DNA from: an uncultured Clostridia bacterium
Lineage (GTDB): Bacteria; Bacillota; Clostridia; Christensenellales; UBA1242
Length of the DNA: 64,000 nt
Assembly (NCBI GenBank): GCA_947624415.1
Contig: CANQKH010000001.1
Coordinates: forward strand, 97,604 to 161,603
Direction of reading: 5' to 3'
Shown here: in pieces, positions 2,940 to 13,285 of the stretch
Position numbering within the stretch: the first letter of the stretch is position 1
Layout: each line of letters starts with the position of its first letter
Made by a program: the position numbers and the translations under genes
The notes under the pieces: model-generated
The model's database searches: none
What the model was told of the DNA's origin: nothing
What the model saw: the letters and a program-made list of their open reading frames with translations, nothing else

Positions 2940-3530
2940 ATGAATTGCAATAAATTTCAAAACAATAACAATCAGCAATGTCAAAATCTTTATCCTTCAC
3001 TTCTGGGGACTGAATGTGGTTGCACACAACCTGGTTTTGGCACGTCAAGTATAGTTGGACCAAGAGGTGCTACAGGTGCTACTGGTGCAACTGGTCCGAC
3101 AGGTGCTACTGGTGCAACGGGAGCAACAGGTGCCACAGGGAGTTCTGCTTTAAGGGCAATCGCCTTTTTTACTGCACCAAGCACAACAAATGCAGAGCCT
3201 ATACTCTTGCTTGAAAACTCATTTCCATCAGGCCAGACAGATATAACATTTGCAGGCGAGAATGGAGTTAATTTGACGGCTGGCACTTATATTATGAGGT
3301 TTGGTTCAACAGTTACAAGCACAAATGGGACACTGCCTACAATTTCTATTTCAGTTGATAATGTTGTTGAAAGTGGGACTATAAGGACAGGTGTTGCGTT
3401 TGGTTCAGCAAATTTGACGGGAGATGCCCTTATAACAATAAACACTAACTCACTTTTAACGTTCAATGTTACATCGGCCCCTGAATTGACTTATGATGAA
3501 AACTTTTTGATTATTTCAAAATTGGAATAA
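2940..3530 (+). CDS. Collagen-like-repeat surface/exosporium-type protein (BclA-like C-terminal domain)
   Basis: Start at MNCNKFQNN preceded by GAGGAGA; GPRGATGATGATGPTGATGATGATGATG; beta-rich C-terminal domain. Confidence 0.8.
   Translation: MNCNKFQNNNNQQCQNLYPSLLGTECGCTQPGFGTSSIVGPRGATGATGATGPTGATGATGATGATGSSALRAIAFFTAPSTTNAEPILLLENSFPSGQTDITFAGENGVNLTAGTYIMRFGSTVTSTNGTLPTISISVDNVVESGTIRTGVAFGSANLTGDALITINTNSLLTFNVTSAPELTYDENFLIISKLE
3057..3140 (+). repeat. Gly-Ala-Thr collagen-type triplet repeat (9-bp unit)
   Basis: Repeated ggtgctactggtgcaac units encoding (GAT)n. Confidence 0.85.
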
Positions 3531-3830: not shown

Positions 3831-3861
3831 TTGACAAATTAGGGTTGTAAAATGATATACT
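3831..3861 (+). promoter_or_regulatory. Sigma70/A-type promoter of the SPFH-ESCRT-like-TIR operon
   Basis: TTGACA (3831-3836) followed by GATATA/TATACT (3854-3861), spacing 17-19 bp. Confidence 0.6.
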
Positions 3862-3903
3862 TATTACGTATAAAGTGTTTGGAATATATGCGAGGAGGTT
3901 TAG

Positions 3904-4821
3904 ATGTTTCAAAAAAAGAAAAGGCAGGTCATAAGGTTTGAACAAAATTTATGTAATGCCAGAGTGGATGACAATGATATTTTGTTTGTCCGAGTTACCG
4001 ATAAAATAACAGATAAAGATGCTTTACTTGAAGTCCCATTAACTCATATTGCATATGTGATTAAAGGTGGCGGTTATGGCAAGGTTTACAAAAGTGGAAC
4101 TTATCCCGTTTTTGAAGACAGCAAGGAAGTGAAAAATTGGCAGCAGGGAATTTCTGTTGATATAATCTATATGCCAAAAGACCCGAATGTTCCAATTAAG
4201 TGGGGGACAAACGAGAAAATTAAATATCGCGATGAAGCAAGCGGAAAGGTTGTTGGAGTTGCTGCTCACGGGGTGTTTGATGTTTCAATCTCAAACCCAG
4301 AGCAATTTTACAGAAAGGTTGTAGGTGCGAGAAGGGAGTTTAGTCTTAGAGAGTTTCAAGACAGATTTAGTGCAAACGTATTGAGTGAATTTACCGCTAT
4401 ATTCTTCCAAACTATTGAAGAACTCAAATTGACAAGCGACAAATTTGATGCCAACAAAAAAAGTATCCAAGAAAAAACGGGAAGGCTTCTAAACAGGAAA
4501 TTTGAGGATGAATGGGGAGTAAGTTTAAATAATTTTATTATTCAATACATAGGAATTTCTGATTTGGAACAGCCTGTGCGGGAACAAGAAAAACAAGAGG
4601 TAAAACAAGAGAAGGAAAAGCCTGCCCAAGCACGATTTTGTCCATACTGTGGTGCTGGCATAGATGAAGATGATATATTCTGCTCAAAGTGTGGCAAGAA
4701 AATAGCAAAAGAGAGTTTAACTTGCCCATCATGTGGGAAAAGAAATAACACCGATGCACAATTTTGTGTGTATTGCGGGAAAAAATTAAGCGAGGGGAAT
4801 CATGTGGAAGAAGAACAATGA
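3904..4821 (+). CDS. YdjI-like SPFH-domain protein with C-terminal double zinc ribbon
   Basis: WGTNEKIKYRDEASGKVVGVAAHGVFDVSISNPEQFYRKVVGARREF SPFH-like core; CPYCGAGIDEDDIFCSKCGKK and CPSCGKRNNTDAQFCVYCGKK ribbons; AGGAGG RBS. Confidence 0.8.
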   Translation: MFQKKKRQVIRFEQNLCNARVDDNDILFVRVTDKITDKDALLEVPLTHIAYVIKGGGYGKVYKSGTYPVFEDSKEVKNWQQGISVDIIYMPKDPNVPIKWGTNEKIKYRDEASGKVVGVAAHGVFDVSISNPEQFYRKVVGARREFSLREFQDRFSANVLSEFTAIFFQTIEELKLTSDKFDANKKSIQEKTGRLLNRKFEDEWGVSLNNFIIQYIGISDLEQPVREQEKQEVKQEKEKPAQARFCPYCGAGIDEDDIFCSKCGKKIAKESLTCPSCGKRNNTDAQFCVYCGKKLSEGNHVEEEQ

Positions 4822-5119
4822 TAAAATATTAAATGATAGAAATTTAATTGAAGAATGCGAAAAGGCAATCGACACATTAATCATTCTTGGTGAGGCTGAT
4901 GATGAATTAACGTCAAATCTAAAAATCATTAAGGAAAAGGTAAAATATCTTGTTCCAAGTAATGACGAAAAGATTTACGAATTTGACAAGAGGATTAAAA
5001 ATCTTATTGAAGATATGCGAATTGCACTGGTAAAGGCGGACAGGGAGTCAATGAAGAAACTTAGACTTATTCTTGCCGATTTGAGGATTGCCATAGTCGA
5101 TAGAAATTCAAGGATATAA
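4802..5119 (+). CDS. Small helical protein of the operon
   Basis: ORF overlapping the previous stop (translational coupling); predicted helical, no recognised family. Confidence 0.7.
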   Translation: MWKKNNDKILNDRNLIEECEKAIDTLIILGEADDELTSNLKIIKEKVKYLVPSNDEKIYEFDKRIKNLIEDMRIALVKADRESMKKLRLILADLRIAIVDRNSRI

Positions 5120-5129
5120 AGGTGAGTTT

Positions 5130-5720
5130 ATGTGGTTTTTTAAAAGTAAATATGAAAAATTATCTCGCGAAGAGGTGGTTGATGCAATTTGTAAACTTGA
5201 AACAGAAACAAAAAGCATTGAAGAAGGGCTAACCTCAAAGCAGGAAGAGATAGATGAACTTATGGAGAAGGGCAGGCAGGAAAAGAATAAAGAGGTCAAA
5301 CTGTTTTACGCAAAAAAAATAAATGCCCTAAAAACAGAAAGAGAACAAAGCGTGCAAAGAGCTTTGTATCTTATGTATAACATTCAACTTATGAATAAAT
5401 TAAAAACATCAATCGATGACAATCAATTCTTCAAGACTTCATCAAAGATACCGCTCAACAAAATGCTGGGCGACCAAAAAGCCCTTGCAAAGTTTTTGAA
5501 TAAGACGTTGGGGACAAGGACAAAGGCGGAAGATGTGCTTACTTCGGCAGATGAGGTTTTCAAAACGCTTGAAGAGTCATACGATAAAAATGAAAGCATA
5601 TATGGCATAAATGACAAAGACGATGCACTTCTATCCATGTTTGAGACAGAGGAACAATTAAACGAGGAAGAAGAAATGTTTACGACAAATGAGCAAAAGG
5701 CCAGCAGTGGCGAAAATTAA
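5130..5720 (+). CDS. ESCRT-III/PspA (Snf7)-like coiled-coil protein
   Basis: Basic/amphipathic helical hairpin KLETETKSIEEGLTSKQEEIDELMEKGRQEKNKEVKLFYAKKINALKTEREQSVQRALYLMYNIQLMNKL, acidic C-terminus. Confidence 0.55.
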   Translation: MWFFKSKYEKLSREEVVDAICKLETETKSIEEGLTSKQEEIDELMEKGRQEKNKEVKLFYAKKINALKTEREQSVQRALYLMYNIQLMNKLKTSIDDNQFFKTSSKIPLNKMLGDQKALAKFLNKTLGTRTKAEDVLTSADEVFKTLEESYDKNESIYGINDKDDALLSMFETEEQLNEEEEMFTTNEQKASSGEN

Positions 5721-5734
5721 AAGGAGAAAAGATT

Positions 5735-6292
5735 ATGTCAGCAAACAAAGAAATTGAAAAAAGAATGTTAATTAAAAGAACTATTTCAGCAATGGAAAAG
5801 CAAATTCAAAGGCTTGAAAATCAAAAAAGAACATACATAGAAGCAGGCAAACAGGCAAAACAAAAGGGACTTACTGCACAATATAACCTTGCTCTTTCGG
5901 GGCTTAGAATGACAATAAGCCAACAACGTCGTGTATATGAAATGAAACTCAATTTTGAAATAACATCGCAGATGAAGGATATGGCAAAAATGACAACAGA
6001 TTTCCTTTCTGGAATGAGTTCATTAAGCAAAGATATGATGAAACTCACAAAGGAATCGGAGTTTAATAAAGTTCAAAAGCAGTTTTCAGAGGCTATGGTT
6101 GGAATGGAAGTTCAAACTGAGAGAATGGAGGACTTTCTTGAAGAAACTCAATCTAGTTTTTCAAGTAATCTAACCAATGAAGAGGAAAGAAATGAACTTG
6201 ACGAGATGATGAATAACGAGGCCGCTATTGGCACAGGGGTTGACGGCGAGATTGAAAAGGAACTTGAAGAACTTAAGAAAAAAATGTTTTAA
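5735..6292 (+). CDS. ESCRT-III (CHMP-like) protein with C-terminal MIM1-like tail
   Basis: Long helical hairpin (basic N-terminus), QMKDMAKMTTDFLSGMSSLSKDMMKLTKESEFNKVQKQFSEAMVGMEVQTERMEDFLEE resembling CHMP helices; C-terminal DGEIEKELEELKKKMF resembles MIM1 (D/E)xxLxxRLxxL(K/R). Confidence 0.6.
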   Translation: MSANKEIEKRMLIKRTISAMEKQIQRLENQKRTYIEAGKQAKQKGLTAQYNLALSGLRMTISQQRRVYEMKLNFEITSQMKDMAKMTTDFLSGMSSLSKDMMKLTKESEFNKVQKQFSEAMVGMEVQTERMEDFLEETQSSFSSNLTNEEERNELDEMMNNEAAIGTGVDGEIEKELEELKKKMF

Positions 6293-6306
6293 TTTAGGGG
6301 AGAACT

Positions 6307-7491
6307 ATGCCTGATATTAGTTTTATAAATGAAATGTATGAAATTTATTATCGCAAAGCAAAGGAGTGTTTTGACAAAAAAGACTTAATGCTTGCAAAGC
6401 GATATTATTTTCTTGCAGCGGAACAAATGTTAAAGATGGCCCAAAACAGCGAAAATCAACTTCAAAAGGCAAGATTTAGCAGAGCCAAAAGTCTTATCGA
6501 TATGGCAGAAAGCATACAAGCAGGGAAGAGAACTGTCTCTGCAACGCCTGAGGAAGAAGAGGTCAGCGTTTCCCAAAATGAAAAAATATCTCTCGATGAG
6601 GCACTTTCAAGGCTTGCAAGACTTGAAGGATTGGGAAAAGTAAAAAGACAGGTTTGTGATTGGATTGACCAAATCAAGGTTTTTCAAATGAGAAAGGAAA
6701 GGGGAATGTCAGTTCCCGATATTTCTTATCACATGGTCTTCACCGGAAACCCTGGAACTGGGAAAACCACACTTGCAAGACTTATGGCACAAATATATTG
6801 TGCACTTGGAATTTTAAGTAATGGCAATTTGGTTGAAGTTGACAGAAGCGGACTTGTTGCCGGATATATTGGACAAACTGCGGTGAAAACCAAGGAGGCA
6901 CTTAAAAAGGCATATGGTGGAGTGCTGTTTATAGATGAGGCTTATTCCCTTGCCAATGGGAATGCCAATGACTTTGGACAGGAAGCAATTGAAACAATAT
7001 TAAAGGAAATGGAAGACAAACGTGATGACCTTGTTGTAATTGTTGCAGGATATGATGAGCCAATGGAGAAGTTTATTGCCTCAAACCCAGGTCTTAAATC
7101 ACGGTTTAAGAATTTCTTTCATTTTGAGGACTATAACGGTGAGCAATTATTCAATATCTTCCAAAAATTTTGTGATGAGAATGAATATAGTATAGAATCT
7201 TCGGCGGAAGATGTTTTGAGGAAGTATTTTGGGCATTTGTATGACCATAGAACGAAAAATTTTGGCAATGCAAGGGAAGTTCGAAATTTCTTTGAAAATA
7301 TAGTAACAATACAATCCAAACGTGTTGTAAATTTATCAGAACCAACAAATGAAGATTTGCAGATGATAAAATTTGAAGACCTTCCAAACAGTGTATTTGA
7401 AACATTGGAAAATGAAGAAAATGACCAAAATGACAATTACGATGAGGTAAAAACTGAAACAAAAGAGGATAACCCACCACCAAAAGATTAA
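6307..7491 (+). CDS. CbbX/SpoVK-type AAA+ ATPase with N-terminal MIT-like domain
   Basis: Walker A GNPGTGKTTLARL, Walker B GVLFIDEAYSL, SRF motif; N-terminal FINEMYEIYYRKAKECFDKKDLMLAKRYYFLAAEQMLKMAQNSENQLQKARFSRAKSLIDMAESIQ looks like a three-helix MIT domain. Confidence 0.85.
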   Translation: MPDISFINEMYEIYYRKAKECFDKKDLMLAKRYYFLAAEQMLKMAQNSENQLQKARFSRAKSLIDMAESIQAGKRTVSATPEEEEVSVSQNEKISLDEALSRLARLEGLGKVKRQVCDWIDQIKVFQMRKERGMSVPDISYHMVFTGNPGTGKTTLARLMAQIYCALGILSNGNLVEVDRSGLVAGYIGQTAVKTKEALKKAYGGVLFIDEAYSLANGNANDFGQEAIETILKEMEDKRDDLVVIVAGYDEPMEKFIASNPGLKSRFKNFFHFEDYNGEQLFNIFQKFCDENEYSIESSAEDVLRKYFGHLYDHRTKNFGNAREVRNFFENIVTIQSKRVVNLSEPTNEDLQMIKFEDLPNSVFETLENEENDQNDNYDEVKTETKEDNPPPKD

Positions 7492-7515
7492 AAATAAATT
7501 TAAGGATAAGTGATT

Positions 7516-10254
7516 ATGAATGAGGGCACAAGATATCTAAGATGTAAGAATTGCGAAGGAGAAATGGATGTTCGTGAGGCAAAAAATGGGGTGTTAACCT
7601 GCCCATATTGCCGCACGATTGTTGTTTTGCCCCGTGAAGATTCATCGCATGAAACTAAGGCCTATTTAAACAGCGGTAATCAAAATCTCGAACTTGGAAG
7701 ATTTGATGAGGCATATATAATGTTTGGCAAGGCGGTTGAAGAGAATGCTCAAGAGCCAGAGGGTTATTTTGGGATGGCACTTGCGAAAGCAAAAATTCAA
7801 TATTTAAAGGATTTGGTCAACAATAGACTTCAACCTATTTGCTTTGAAATTACAAGCAGTAAATTTACTGATGATAAAAATTATCAAAAAGCCATAGAAC
7901 TTTCCAATCCCGACCAAAAGCAAATTTACAGCGAAAAGGGAGAGGAAATAGACAATATAAAAAGCAAGTTTTTTGAACTTAAAAAAAATGGTGTTGAATA
8001 TGACACATTCATTTGCTGTAAGGTTACAAATGAGGATGGTGGAAACACTCAGGACAGCATGAACGCCCTAAAAATTTATCACGAACTTAAAGATGCAGGA
8101 TACAAACCTTTTTATTCGGAAGAGGTGTTAAAAAATTTCGTTGGTGATGATTATGAGGCAAACATTCTTTACGCTCTTTATTCTTGTGGAAGCATGATTG
8201 TTGTTTGCAGCAATGAGGAATATCTGCAAACAAAATGGGTTAAAAATGAGTATACCCGTTTTATAACTTTGCTTGAAGAGAAAGAAAAACAGCGTGGCAG
8301 TATTGCTTTTGTTTATAATGGCAAGCCTATTGAGGAATTTCCTGGCATTCAAGGCAAGGTGCAGGGGATAGATTTTTCAAAATTTAATGCTTTAAACCAA
8401 ATTGTGGCGTTTGTCGAAAAATTTGCAGGTTCAAACAGATTTCTTGATTTTCAACGTAAGGAATATGAAAAAAACAGCGTTCAAAAGAAAAGGACTATAA
8501 AAAGAGAAATACAAAAACGTAATTTAAGCGTTTCGGTAAGCGAGGCAGTTTCAATTTCCGATGAGGCAAAATTAAGAAATGCTCAAATTCTTTTGGAGAA
8601 GGGCGACTTTGACAATGTTTGTAATTTTTGCAATGAAATACTCATGAGCAATAAGTTTTATGGCAAGGCATATTGGACTTTATTTTTGGCACAAAACAAG
8701 TGTAAAAGCGATGAGGAGTTTATAAAATCAACAGCACCTGTAAATAATTTTGAAGATTTTGAAAAGGCAATATCTGCAAGTAGCGATAAAAACGACAGAG
8801 AAAAATATTATAATTGCCTCAAACAACGTGTTTTGGAGAATGGCAACAAGACCGATTTTGAAGAATATATTGCCCTACCTGAGGTTGAAGATAAAGACCT
8901 TTCGGCGGCAATAGACAAAGTTTATAATGTTTCAAAAGAAAATAGAGACAAAGAACTTTTTGATAAGGCAATTTCTGTTGAAAAACATACAAACAGATAC
9001 ATAAAAATGAATTATGGCTTTTTGAAAGGGTTGCCAATTGAGGAAAGAAAGCCATATTTTGAAAATATATTAAATGTAGACGAGGCAAATCCCGAAGCCT
9101 TGTATGAAAACTTTAATTTACAAAACAATCTTTTAAGCGATGAGGCAATATTCAACTTTTATAGTGATAAACAAAATCATGAAATAATAGAAAACACTCT
9201 TTTTACTTATGGCTTTAATAAGTTTGCCTGCGACGACCTTGACAGAATTGTGCAAAATGGGGGAGATTCCCAAAAGGGTTGTAATATATATGACCTTATT
9301 TTGAGTATGGTTCCAAAGGGAAAAAACAAAATATTTTCATTTTATTTGGGTCAGGCGATAGCCTTTCTCTTTGCGGGAGAAAAGAAAAATGGGCAATTTT
9401 TTGTAGATTTCGAGGCACTTGAAAAATATAATAATGCTTTGATTTCCACAGATAAGTATAATGCAAACTGCTATGTAAATAGGGTGCTTATTGAAAATAA
9501 GATAAAAAATCCGCTCGAACTTATGGATTGCAAATCTCTTTATGATTATGATGATTTCCGCCTTGCAGTCAACACATTTGCTGAGCGTTACCCAAATAAG
9601 ACAAATTTATTTATGCAATTTGACGATGAACTAAAAGAAATTAAAACCATGCTTTCCACTCCAAAAATAAAACAATACGTGCTTGACAATTATGTGCCAA
9701 AAATGGAATGGCTCAGCGGAAAGGCAAAAGCAGATATTGTAGAATTGCTTGATGGCAAAATGCAAAAGAGCGTGGGTAGTGTTCTGCAAAAAAATGAATG
9801 CAAAGAATTGAAGGAACTTTGCACTTTGCAAAAAGATGTTACAAATGATGAAGATTTTGTAATGGCGAGAGATATTGCAAACGTGCTTTCAAGTAAGAAC
9901 CTTATAAAAAAGGCAGATAAAAATGATTTAACTTCAAAGCCTGGGAAGGCAGAACTTACAAAGAATGAAGAAAAATCATCTGTTGACACTCCAGATGACA
10001 GACCTCAAAATGAAGAAAAAGATGACAAAACTGATGAGCCACAAGAGGAAATGGGACTGGCAGAGGAATTAAACTCACTAAGTGAACAACAGCCACAGGC
10101 GGCAAAGAGCAATTATGAAGCATACAGAAAAGAGGAACGCCAAAGAATAAGAAAATCATCAATAAAAACTATATTGTGGACACTCTATGCACTAGGAATA
10201 TTTTTTACAGTTGGAATACTTTTGATTTTTGCTCTCACGCGATTTGTGGGTTAA
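7516..10254 (+). CDS. Zinc-ribbon/TPR/TIR-domain protein with C-terminal transmembrane helix
   Basis: CKNCEGEMDVREAKNGVLTCPYC ribbon; TIR core YDTFICCKVTNEDGGNTQDSMNALKIYHELKDAGYKPFYSEEVLKNFVGDDYEANILYALYSCGSMIVVCSNEEYLQTKWVKNEYTRF; C-terminal KTILWTLYALGIFFTVGILLIFALTRFVG TM; ATG 7516 preferred over GTG 7510. Confidence 0.85.
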   Translation: MNEGTRYLRCKNCEGEMDVREAKNGVLTCPYCRTIVVLPREDSSHETKAYLNSGNQNLELGRFDEAYIMFGKAVEENAQEPEGYFGMALAKAKIQYLKDLVNNRLQPICFEITSSKFTDDKNYQKAIELSNPDQKQIYSEKGEEIDNIKSKFFELKKNGVEYDTFICCKVTNEDGGNTQDSMNALKIYHELKDAGYKPFYSEEVLKNFVGDDYEANILYALYSCGSMIVVCSNEEYLQTKWVKNEYTRFITLLEEKEKQRGSIAFVYNGKPIEEFPGIQGKVQGIDFSKFNALNQIVAFVEKFAGSNRFLDFQRKEYEKNSVQKKRTIKREIQKRNLSVSVSEAVSISDEAKLRNAQILLEKGDFDNVCNFCNEILMSNKFYGKAYWTLFLAQNKCKSDEEFIKSTAPVNNFEDFEKAISASSDKNDREKYYNCLKQRVLENGNKTDFEEYIALPEVEDKDLSAAIDKVYNVSKENRDKELFDKAISVEKHTNRYIKMNYGFLKGLPIEERKPYFENILNVDEANPEALYENFNLQNNLLSDEAIFNFYSDKQNHEIIENTLFTYGFNKFACDDLDRIVQNGGDSQKGCNIYDLILSMVPKGKNKIFSFYLGQAIAFLFAGEKKNGQFFVDFEALEKYNNALISTDKYNANCYVNRVLIENKIKNPLELMDCKSLYDYDDFRLAVNTFAERYPNKTNLFMQFDDELKEIKTMLSTPKIKQYVLDNYVPKMEWLSGKAKADIVELLDGKMQKSVGSVLQKNECKELKELCTLQKDVTNDEDFVMARDIANVLSSKNLIKKADKNDLTSKPGKAELTKNEEKSSVDTPDDRPQNEEKDDKTDEPQEEMGLAEELNSLSEQQPQAAKSNYEAYRKEERQRIRKSSIKTILWTLYALGIFFTVGILLIFALTRFVG

Positions 10255-10282
10255 AATTGTAAAGGATTGGTCTAAAAATAAA

Positions 10283-10316
10283 AAAAAGGTTGATATTTTG
10301 AATCAACCTTTTTTGT
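10283..10316 (+). terminator. Rho-independent terminator of the TIR operon
   Basis: AAGGTTGATattttgaATCAACCTT followed by T-run. Confidence 0.85.
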
Positions 10317-11075: not shown

Positions 11076-13181
11076 TTAGAGCATATCTTCATATTTGTGT
11101 AGTATTTTCTCAGTAGCGGGTGGGACTAATTTTTTTATAAGTGTCCAGTCTTTTCTTTTTAATGCATTTCTAACAGTTTTCGCACTATAAGGAATGCCGT
11201 CCTCGTTTTCGAACCGAGGGATTTCGGTTGACTTTATACCATATTTTGGTAAATATTTTGCACTATCCTCATTCATTTTTTGAGTAAATTTATCAACAGG
11301 CTCACTTCCTAAGAATCTTTCTTTTATATTTAATGCTGGTTTAATTACAGTCCCTATAAAATCTATAAAACCCAAGGTGTTCCCACACACATCTGGATTA
11401 TCATCTCTTTCAAAATAACCCGGTAAAAAAAGGGTGCGAGGTATAATATCTGTTCTATCTTTTATAACTGTTACATTTGTCAAGTTTTTACATGATTCGA
11501 CAGCCATCTCATAAACATCATCTGGTGCAAACATTCCATCATTTAGCGCTAACATTGCAAAAACGTGGTCTGAGTGTTTAGAGGCATATTCCACTAATTT
11601 ATAATGTCCAAGAGTAAATGGATTGGCGTGCATTAATACAATTGAGCAATAATCTTTTTCGACTTTAAATTGTCGTAAATAGTCTTGATATAGTTTTATT
11701 TGGTTTTCTAATGAATTTATTTGATTTTTAAATTCATTTTCTAATTGAACCTTTATTTTTTGTGTAGAATTTCCTTTCATAATCAATTGATTCTTTATTT
11801 TTGAATATATAAATTTGGCCAATAATTCCATGCAAATATGATTGCAGTGCATAGGTTCATCAAGAAAATAATCGTGAATTGTCAATGAATTAAAAAATTG
11901 TTCAAGCGAAAAAATGTTAGAAACATTATAGAATTCTAACTGTTTTTGTTCTTCTTCAAGCAGAAGAAAGATTATTTTATCGTCATCAGTCAAATGAAGA
12001 GTTCTCAAAATACGCAAACTTTCATATATAGAGAGATTTCTTGCACCATAATTATACATTTCATAGTCTTGTTTGTTTTCATTTATCAACCGCTGCATTG
12101 AACTTGCTAGAGTATGTTGATCGTCGACGGTTGCACCATAAACAGTGCATGCTCCAAACATACAAATACAATGTTTGTAATACATTGTTTTATCGGTAGT
12201 AAAACGGATGCCATTAAATGCTCTACACAAAGGGTTTTTTGAGTCAACAAGTGAGCATACGCCATTTTTAAACTCAAGTCCTGATAATTCATTTCGTGAT
12301 TTAATAAAATCTTCTGAATACATAGTTCCAAATACTTTTTTTACTAATTTTTCTATTTCTGGATTATCCATGTGATTATAGTAATATCGATAATGATGGT
12401 CAAAGGATATTCGATATTGCTCTTGAAGTGAAAGGTTTGTAAATTTATCTGTATTAGGAAAAACAAAGTAAAAAGCCTGATTGCTTAACTTGGAATGAAC
12501 ATAAAAGTAAAGTTCTGCTTGGTTACATAATTCATAGAGTGTGGTAAAAGCGGCAACGTAATGATTCGATAAGCATTGAAATGAAGTTATGCCATGTTTT
12601 AGTTTTTCTAAATGTGAATTAGTATCTATTATAAGTGAATTTTCTTCTAATGTTGATTGTAAAAATGTTTGCAAAGAATCATCGATAATTTGTAATTTTG
12701 TGTCTTTTAAATAAGATTTAGTATATTCATAGATATTTTTTGCAAAATCGCCACAAAAAAATATTTTCGAATATTTTTTATATTTTAAATAATCTGAAAT
12801 AATAGTATTTTGACTATAAAGTGTATTCCAACGCTCAAGCGACATCGAAAACAAACTGGTGATTTTTTCGATAATCTCACATTCTCCGACAAGTTTATTA
12901 TCTTTTATAATAGGGAGTCTAGATAGTTGTTTTCCTATCGCAATGTTTGCGAATTCATTAATTTTTTCCATATCATTTATAACAGGATAAGAAGTATCAA
13001 TGAAGTTTTCTGATAAGACTGAGTTCTTATTGATAATGCCCCAATAATTATCATTTTTAGTGATAAAAAATATTAAAGAAGGATCTTGAAAAATTTCTTT
13101 GGTTAATTCAAAAATGTTGATTTGTGATAATTGAATAACCCTATTTTTTATTTGATTGTATTCATTTATTTTAAAGTTCAT
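11076..13181 (-). CDS. Multidomain protein: unknown N-terminus, SGNH-like middle, C-terminal citrate-lyase-ligase (CitC)-type nucleotidyltransferase
   Basis: C-terminal IVLMHANPFTLGHYKLVEYASKHSDHVFAML... FLGSEPVDKFTQKMNED...IPYSAKTVRNALKRKDWTLIKKLVPPATEKIL matches CitC family; start reset to MNFKINEYN after GGGAG. Confidence 0.8.
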   Translation of the reverse strand: MNFKINEYNQIKNRVIQLSQINIFELTKEIFQDPSLIFFITKNDNYWGIINKNSVLSENFIDTSYPVINDMEKINEFANIAIGKQLSRLPIIKDNKLVGECEIIEKITSLFSMSLERWNTLYSQNTIISDYLKYKKYSKIFFCGDFAKNIYEYTKSYLKDTKLQIIDDSLQTFLQSTLEENSLIIDTNSHLEKLKHGITSFQCLSNHYVAAFTTLYELCNQAELYFYVHSKLSNQAFYFVFPNTDKFTNLSLQEQYRISFDHHYRYYYNHMDNPEIEKLVKKVFGTMYSEDFIKSRNELSGLEFKNGVCSLVDSKNPLCRAFNGIRFTTDKTMYYKHCICMFGACTVYGATVDDQHTLASSMQRLINENKQDYEMYNYGARNLSIYESLRILRTLHLTDDDKIIFLLLEEEQKQLEFYNVSNIFSLEQFFNSLTIHDYFLDEPMHCNHICMELLAKFIYSKIKNQLIMKGNSTQKIKVQLENEFKNQINSLENQIKLYQDYLRQFKVEKDYCSIVLMHANPFTLGHYKLVEYASKHSDHVFAMLALNDGMFAPDDVYEMAVESCKNLTNVTVIKDRTDIIPRTLFLPGYFERDDNPDVCGNTLGFIDFIGTVIKPALNIKERFLGSEPVDKFTQKMNEDSAKYLPKYGIKSTEIPRFENEDGIPYSAKTVRNALKRKDWTLIKKLVPPATEKILHKYEDML

Positions 13182-13285
13182 TGTTTTTCTCCCAATAGTT
13201 ATAATATATCTTTTAAGACCAAAAAGCAAATAAATATTGACTTTTAAATCAAAAAGTGATATAAAAATAAAAGAAGGTATAATTT

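Follow-up and report, generated by a model that had tools for sequence, protein, structure and literature searches.

A six-gene cluster of uncultured Clostridia combining an ESCRT-III-like protein, an AAA+ ATPase with a MIT-like domain, and a TIR protein

A cluster of six genes in an uncultured Clostridia bacterium appears to bring together a protein of the ESCRT-III (Snf7) superfamily, an AAA+ ATPase with a MIT-like N-terminal domain, and a membrane-anchored TIR protein. The genes, called A through F here, lie within a stretch of 64,000 nucleotides (the window; contig CANQKH010000001.1, positions 97,604 to 161,603) that is part of a 1.45-Mb metagenome-assembled genome (MAG). A sequence-only reading of this DNA had proposed a bacterial ESCRT-III/Vps4-like membrane module coupled to a TIR effector, and the computational analysis described below follows up that proposal. 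Coordinates are those of the window unless a related locus is named, and counts of loci refer to the 69 recovered in one scan of species-representative genomes with a profile of protein D, or to 70 with the window included.

Six closely spaced open reading frames (ORFs) occupy positions 3904-10254 of the + strand; A and B overlap, and the remaining gaps measure 10-24 bp. The features of the cluster are as follows.

3832..3837, + strand: candidate -35 element, a perfect TTGACA, with a -10 candidate (TATACT) 19 bp downstream
3904..4821, + strand: gene A, SPFH/Band-7 protein with a C-terminal double zinc ribbon, 305 aa, YdjI-like (Pfam Band_7_1 2.5e-15, DZR 1.1e-10)
4802..5119, + strand: gene B, 105 aa, small and helical, a partner conserved with A (64 of 70 loci have an orthologue)
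5130..5720, + strand: gene C, 196 aa, a helical hairpin and candidate for a second ESCRT-III-like subunit (AlphaFold2 (AF2) model, Foldseek)
5735..6292, + strand: gene D, ESCRT-III (Snf7)-like protein, 185 aa (Pfam Snf7, AF2 model, fold search)
6242..6286, + strand: MIM1-like helix at the C-terminus of D (residues 170-184, DGEIEKELEELKKKM), conserved, with a variable linker ahead of it
6307..7491, + strand: gene E, MIT-like domain and CbbX/SpoVK-type AAA+ ATPase, 394 aa (TIGR02881 2.6e-86, AAA_lid_6 2.7e-17)
6307..6531, + strand: MIT-like N-terminal domain of E, residues 1-75 (Pfam MIT at the family level)
7510..10254, + strand: gene F, zinc ribbon, TPR-like region, TIR domain, helical region and a single C-terminal transmembrane (TM) segment (TIR_2 9e-10)
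8000..8416, + strand: TIR domain of F with a FYSEE motif, the candidate catalytic Glu region (profile and alignment)
10282..10314, no strand assigned: terminator-like stem-loop with T/A-rich flanks, a candidate for bidirectional termination

A purine-rich, Shine-Dalgarno-like stretch stands ahead of every start codon from A to F, and this, together with the tight spacing, makes co-transcription of the six genes likely. An operon promoter at 3832 is plausible; a simple promoter scan did not list it because the best -10 candidate lies 19 bp from the TTGACA. The promoter-to-terminator unit of the sequence-only reading is thus borne out in its six packed ORFs and its terminator candidate, while its promoter stays at the level of plausibility. 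The products themselves were as that reading had described them, namely an SPFH/zinc-ribbon protein (the YdjI-like assignment of A), a small helical protein, two helical-hairpin proteins, a MIT-like AAA+ protein, and a zinc-ribbon/TPR/TIR protein with a TM segment.

The ESCRT-III-like protein, its putative motor and the TIR protein

The assignment of D to the ESCRT-III (Snf7) superfamily is made from profile matches and from its predicted fold. The window protein matches Pfam Snf7 (PF03357) at 0.0013 (18.8 bits), under the curated cut-off of 27.3, and three orthologues from related genomes exceed that cut-off with matches of near full length (G107 at 33.3 bits and 3.5e-8, G239 at 28.0, and G145 at 27.9). 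D is the sole Snf7 match anywhere in the genome of the window (G000), and among 20 genomes without the system two give partial matches below the cut-off and the remainder none. The AF2 model of D, built with 27 sequences (pLDDT 70, pTM 0.52), has helices at residues 3-44, 47-105, 109-146, 149-163 and 173-184, which follow the ESCRT-III topology of an alpha1-alpha2 hairpin, alpha3/4, alpha5 and a tail. When the model was searched against 350,542 PDB chains, the best matches were CHMP1B, archaeal CdvB and CHMP2A-CHMP3 (TM-scores 0.53/0.66), and nine of the ten best were ESCRT-III chains. Structure prediction had been put forward as a check on the proposal, and for D it returned an ESCRT-III-like model and not an unrelated coiled-coil.

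The two hairpin proteins had also been likened to PspA. PspA_IM30 (PF04012) has no match in the 41 genomes searched, the window's own and 40 relatives, and the operon was accordingly not classed as a PspA/phage-shock system. The likeness to ESCRT-III holds well for D and weakly for C. The AF2 model of C (pLDDT 67; helices 13-50, 54-104, 116-150 and 164-192) has its helices in the same order as D; its top Foldseek match is the Asgard ESCRT-IIIB filament 9ftl (probability 0.97), below which bMERB domains are mixed with ESCRT-III, Vipp1 and PspA structures. From this model C is a probable second ESCRT-III-like subunit. Homology between C and D by profile comparison was rejected (hhalign probability 0.1), and profile searches of PDB sequences returned no relatives of either.

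The C-terminal tail of D offers a possible link to the ATPase. A pattern of the form PhixxxPhixxPhi[KR], like that of MIM1 elements, occurs in the last 30 residues of 64 of 70 D proteins, as compared with 49 of 833 other ORFs (5.9%) and 2.6% of shuffled tails. Column entropy averages 2.35 bits over the variable linker and 1.40 bits over the conserved tail. The tail is probably a docking element for the MIT-like domain of the motor, as judged from these sequence patterns. ESCRT-III tails are known to recruit MIT proteins (PMC9477494). Neither the tail, the absence of PspA, nor the domain swaps found in relatives had been mentioned in the sequence-only reading.

Evidence for a MIT-like domain in E comes from its family as a whole. 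MIT is the top Pfam family for the N-terminal 75-80 residues, matching 8 of 28 members (best 2.3e-7), and the match is one of the family, the window protein being absent from the MIT matches listed; TPR_8 is a minor Pfam match in the same region. Searched against the PDB, the family finds 2mpk (chitin synthase 1), a MIT-domain structure, as its best match at 0.005 once a designed repeat protein is set aside. All 27 of the sampled genomes of the order that have the MIT domain also carry D. The MIT-like N-terminus first suggested for this protein is upheld on these grounds.

The remainder of E has a Walker A motif (GNPGTGKT) and a Walker B motif (VLFIDEA), and matches Pfam AAA and AAA_lid_6, SpoVK (TIGR02881) and CbbX (1.4e-72). 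The window motor is of the CbbX/SpoVK type with AAA_lid_6, and the label Vps4-like had to be dropped for it. Motors of the classic Vps4/Cdc48 type do occur in relatives, where they hold the position of E in 52 loci (most relatives) with the same MIT family; in 13 loci such an AAA domain is fused behind a CbbX domain so that both are present. Compared with the PDB, the AAA domain of the relatives finds yeast Vps4 as its best single-domain match (220 bits, versus about 205 for the Cdc48/p97 D2 domain).

Protein F is 914 aa long if it starts at 7510, or 912 aa from an ATG at 7516, and has one TM segment at residue 891; the chain ends 4 residues after this segment. The N-terminus and TIR domain are predicted to be cytoplasmic because basic (KR-rich) residues precede the TM segment. 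Many F homologues continue for about 200-700 residues past their last TM segment, residues that are probably outside the cell, and several F proteins have no TM segment at all. The TIR motifs YDxFIC and FYSEE/FFSEV are kept in the window clade and in Coproplasma-type loci. The TIR of F has no close PDB match, and placing its catalytic Glu by PDB alignment was abandoned since no usable match was found. PADLOC, run on the operon proteins, matched E weakly to generic AAA entries (IetA, TRIP13) and gave nothing for F, and Thoeris or another catalogued defence system was rejected for the operon on this basis. The TIR assignment itself, with one C-terminal TM segment, agrees with the original description.

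Conservation and exchange of parts in related loci

Genes A-B-C-D-E occur together, all transcribed in one direction, in 63 of 70 loci, and a TIR-like F accompanies them in 57 of these 63, always on the same strand. Because the five-gene core recurs so often in one orientation, the six-gene arrangement is far beyond chance. Of the seven loci with a gap in this set, six are on short contigs or at contig ends, and the seventh, L099, is a distant variant. The neighbourhood comparison that had been proposed as a second check therefore found a conserved core, with the TIR gene kept alongside it. A, like B, has an orthologue in 64 of 70 loci; B has no Pfam family above cut-off, and several of its relatives have a TM-like stretch ahead of the helical part. 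An extra ORF (about 117-120 aa) separates B from C in more than half of the large clade described below (L046, L048, L050, L053, L054 and others), and its product matches the N-terminal TPR-like part of F.

The distribution of the system is patchy. Across the order, the D profile is found in 39 of 396 genomes, representing 20 of 142 genera and about nine families; within the genus, 15 of 37 genomes have the system, and near-complete genomes are among those without it. A scan of 398 genomes across the phylum matched the window genome and gave one further partial, chance-like match. The closest relatives are Clostridia/Clostridiales MAGs, many from rabbit and ruminant gut, the named ones being Candidatus Caccovivens and Coproplasma (Clostridia). 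Plasmid records contain no match to the D profile, viral contigs and phage records none to the operon parts searched, and a mobile-element origin was rejected. Flanking genes are variable outside the largest clade (L046-L091).

In distant loci the core of SPFH protein, D and MIT-AAA protein persists while other parts are exchanged. D is fused to FtsK/SpoIIIE (L113:4359-6278, L115:7719-9254) or to a RuvB-type AAA domain (L116:5966-7633, L120:1301-4186, the latter also TnsA-like). RuvB-type AAA proteins that begin with a weakly MIT-like region are encoded in L099:10608-12797, L122:10691-12886 and L117:3791-6325; the MIT E-values are 0.008-0.015 for L117 and L122, and for L099 the likeness was judged by eye. 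A TnsA-like endonuclease forms the C-terminal end of the proteins of L099 and L122, only the RuvB part being detected in that of L117, and SNF2-type helicases resembling DrmD/DpdE/BrxH follow or lie near all three genes.

Other partners are of a similarly immune type. A TIR-NB-ARC-APAF1_C-WD (NLR-like) protein is encoded in L115:11390-14713 beside the D-FtsK, D and MIT-AAA genes. A gene for a zinc ribbon with an HtrA/trypsin-like serine protease lies in or near the operon of 18 loci (L033, L034, L035, L037, L040, L041, L043, L049, L051, L080, L086, L092-L095, L113, L116 and L121), and BrxL, the BREX Lon-like protein, is in or beside the operon of seven (L049, L051, L093, L094, L095, L096 and L124), the BrxL of L049 (17450-18862) matching PDB 8emc at 3e-50. 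BspA-type LRR_5 repeats were seen in one partner protein and, weakly, in F of L017 and L033.

Proposed function and rival explanations

Elements of this system are familiar from several others. As in the ESCRT-III/Vps4 systems of eukaryotes and the Cdv system of archaea, a gene of the ESCRT-III superfamily lies by the gene of a MIT-AAA+ ATPase and the protein has a MIM-like tail; the AAA domain of the relatives is likewise Vps4/Cdc48-type, though not nested in Vps4. The window system differs in being bacterial, in its CbbX-type motor, and in its SPFH and TIR partners, and according to PMC10936438 only archaea and eukaryotes have ESCRT systems with both an ESCRT-III protein and a MIT-AAA motor. 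The PspA-YdjGHI operon of B. subtilis similarly joins an SPFH and zinc-finger protein with an ESCRT-III superfamily protein (PMC8581546), whereas the window has a Snf7-like D with no PF04012 match, adds an AAA+ motor and a TIR protein, and has no YdjG/H. The human MIT-ESCRT-III interactome (spastin, katanin, calpain-7; PMC9477494) offers a parallel in that a variety of enzymes attach to ESCRT-III tails by way of their MIT domains; here the proteins are bacterial, the motors are of CbbX, RuvB and Vps4 type, and docking is predicted from sequence. Thoeris and TIR-STAND proteins share the TIR output domain, and one relative has TIR-NB-ARC-WD, but the window operon has neither ThsA nor a PADLOC match to F.

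The sections of Ravi et al. (2024, PMC11237479) drawn on here describe bacteria in which PspA/Snf7 has AAA+ or Band-7 neighbours, bacterial vps4 that was acquired by transfer and is not accompanied by snf7, and other AAA+ proteins together with PspA or TM-Snf7. The notion that bacteria carry out ESCRT-like remodelling at the expense of ATP is common to that work and the present proposal; the predicted MIT/MIM pairing, the TIR domain, and the CbbX/RuvB/FtsK swaps are found here and do not figure in those sections. The combination was not found described in the open-access literature searched; subscription papers and preprints were largely beyond its scope, and an earlier description is possible.

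We think it probable that these genes encode a bacterial ESCRT-III/MIT-AAA+ platform seated on the inner membrane, with exchangeable immune-type outputs, that serves an envelope-damage or anti-phage response. In such a scheme A, together with B, would recruit or nucleate C/D filaments at the inner face of the cytoplasmic membrane, much as YdjI recruits PspA (PMC8581546). E would dock through its MIT domain onto the tail of D, and its AAA+ ring, CbbX-type in the window and Vps4/Cdc48-type or both fused in relatives, would extract subunits so that the filament is remodelled or disassembled. Tail-anchored F, with its cytoplasmic TIR domain, would read the state of the platform and give an output; with an active TIR this would be either cleavage of NAD+ or a nucleotide signal. 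Related loci would mount other enzymes on the same platform. Gene context suggests that the system most likely responds to envelope damage, phage-caused damage included; a defence or damage response is favoured mainly because immune-type enzymes recur in related loci. Such a six-gene system would offer a simple setting in which to study how ATP drives ESCRT remodelling, and it would tie membrane repair to effectors of immune type, TIR among them. The occurrence in bacteria of an ESCRT-III and MIT-AAA design, with its MIM-like tail and exchangeable motors, also bears on the age of the MIT-ESCRT-III code, and the predicted pairing of tail and MIT domain can be tested directly with one domain and one peptide.

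A broader version is put forward tentatively. In gut Clostridia, ESCRT-III filaments may be an immune platform, a membrane-attached machine used for defence, into which interchangeable AAA+ motors (CbbX, Vps4-type, RuvB, FtsK) and effectors (TIR, TIR-NB-ARC, TnsA-like nuclease with SNF2 helicase, HtrA-like protease, BrxL) are plugged through MIT domains or by direct fusion to the ESCRT-III domain. If true, this would be the bacterial equivalent, employed in defence, of the MIT-ESCRT-III code of eukaryotes.

That said, a number of observations weigh against the favoured platform. The flanks of the operon within the window are no defence island. In the largest clade, about 28 loci share one chromosomal site, which would not be expected of a mobile defence cassette, and have a degenerate TIR, so that the earlier suggestion that the TIR executes is doubtful as a general rule. 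The AF2 models of C and D are of moderate confidence (pLDDT 67-70), the fold matches of D all have E-values above 0.05, no Foldseek match of either protein falls below 0.001, and C has no Pfam family or any sequence-profile support, whether from Pfam, the C-D comparison, or the PDB sequence search. MIT stays under the Pfam curated cut-off in the window copy of E and in genome-wide searches, and it resembles TPR. Kinship of the relatives' motors with Vps4 is similarly qualified: Vps4_C (PF09336) was rejected as proof because the p97 D2 control itself scores 25.5 bits, and in a maximum-likelihood tree the relatives' AAA domains fall between the Vps4/spastin/katanin and Cdc48/PAN/FtsH references, nested in neither. 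Of the references in this tree, Vps4 and p97 (as against spastin, katanin, FtsH and PAN) were checked against PDB output.

The main rival, on account of the degenerate TIR and fixed site of the largest clade, is housekeeping membrane maintenance. On this view the operon stands in for a missing PspA response by repairing or stabilising the cytoplasmic membrane, F acts as scaffold or sensor and contacts proteins through its TIR, and no meaning attaches to the neighbours of immune type. The absence of PspA from all 41 genomes and the fixed site with its degenerate TIR suit a resident maintenance role, at least in the largest clade, where two ABC exporters lie downstream and a conserved 128-aa gene upstream (neighbours identified by eye); the YdjI/PspA precedent (PMC8581546) and the absence of matches in plasmids, phages and viral contigs fit as well. 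Against it stand the absence of the operon from most genomes of the genus and order, near-complete ones included, the variable flanks outside the large clade, and partners that are repeatedly nucleases, helicases, proteases, TIR-NB-ARC proteins and BrxL. On balance we regard this explanation as rather unlikely. The largest clade may possibly represent domestication of a defence module, or the reverse.

It is quite improbable that the likeness to ESCRT-III and MIT is convergent, with C and D generic coiled-coil hairpins and the N-terminus of E a TPR-like bundle. The moderate model confidence, the Foldseek E-values above 0.05, the minor TPR_8 match, and the lack of any sequence relation for C would fit such convergence, but near full-length matches above the Snf7 cut-off in three D orthologues, set against two partial, sub-threshold ones among the 20 system-free genomes, do not, nor do the rank of MIT as top family for E and the co-occurrence of tail motif and MIT domain. 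Least probable of all is a surface or vesicle machine in which the ESCRT-III-like filaments would shape or bud off membrane so that F-type proteins are displayed or released, for although many F homologues have long extensions past the TM segment and LRR_5 repeats occur in one partner and weakly in two F proteins, the window F has nothing outside, F types vary by locus, and several lack a TM segment. The envelope-damage or anti-phage platform remains the preferred reading.

Neighbouring genes in the window

The operon is flanked in the window by bile-salt-hydrolase-like, collagen-like, NUDIX and citrate lyase ligase-like genes. Just upstream, at 2943-3530, is a collagen-like protein of Gly-X-Y repeats with a BclA-like layout, an orthologue of which lies upstream in L031 as well. 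Positions 101-1525 encode a 474-aa protein without any Pfam match. The 717-aa product of 11076-13229 has a citrate lyase ligase domain at its C-terminus, ahead of which comes a long N-terminal region that no Pfam family matches; an iron-alcohol-dehydrogenase-like gene and glycosyltransferase-like genes lie nearby.

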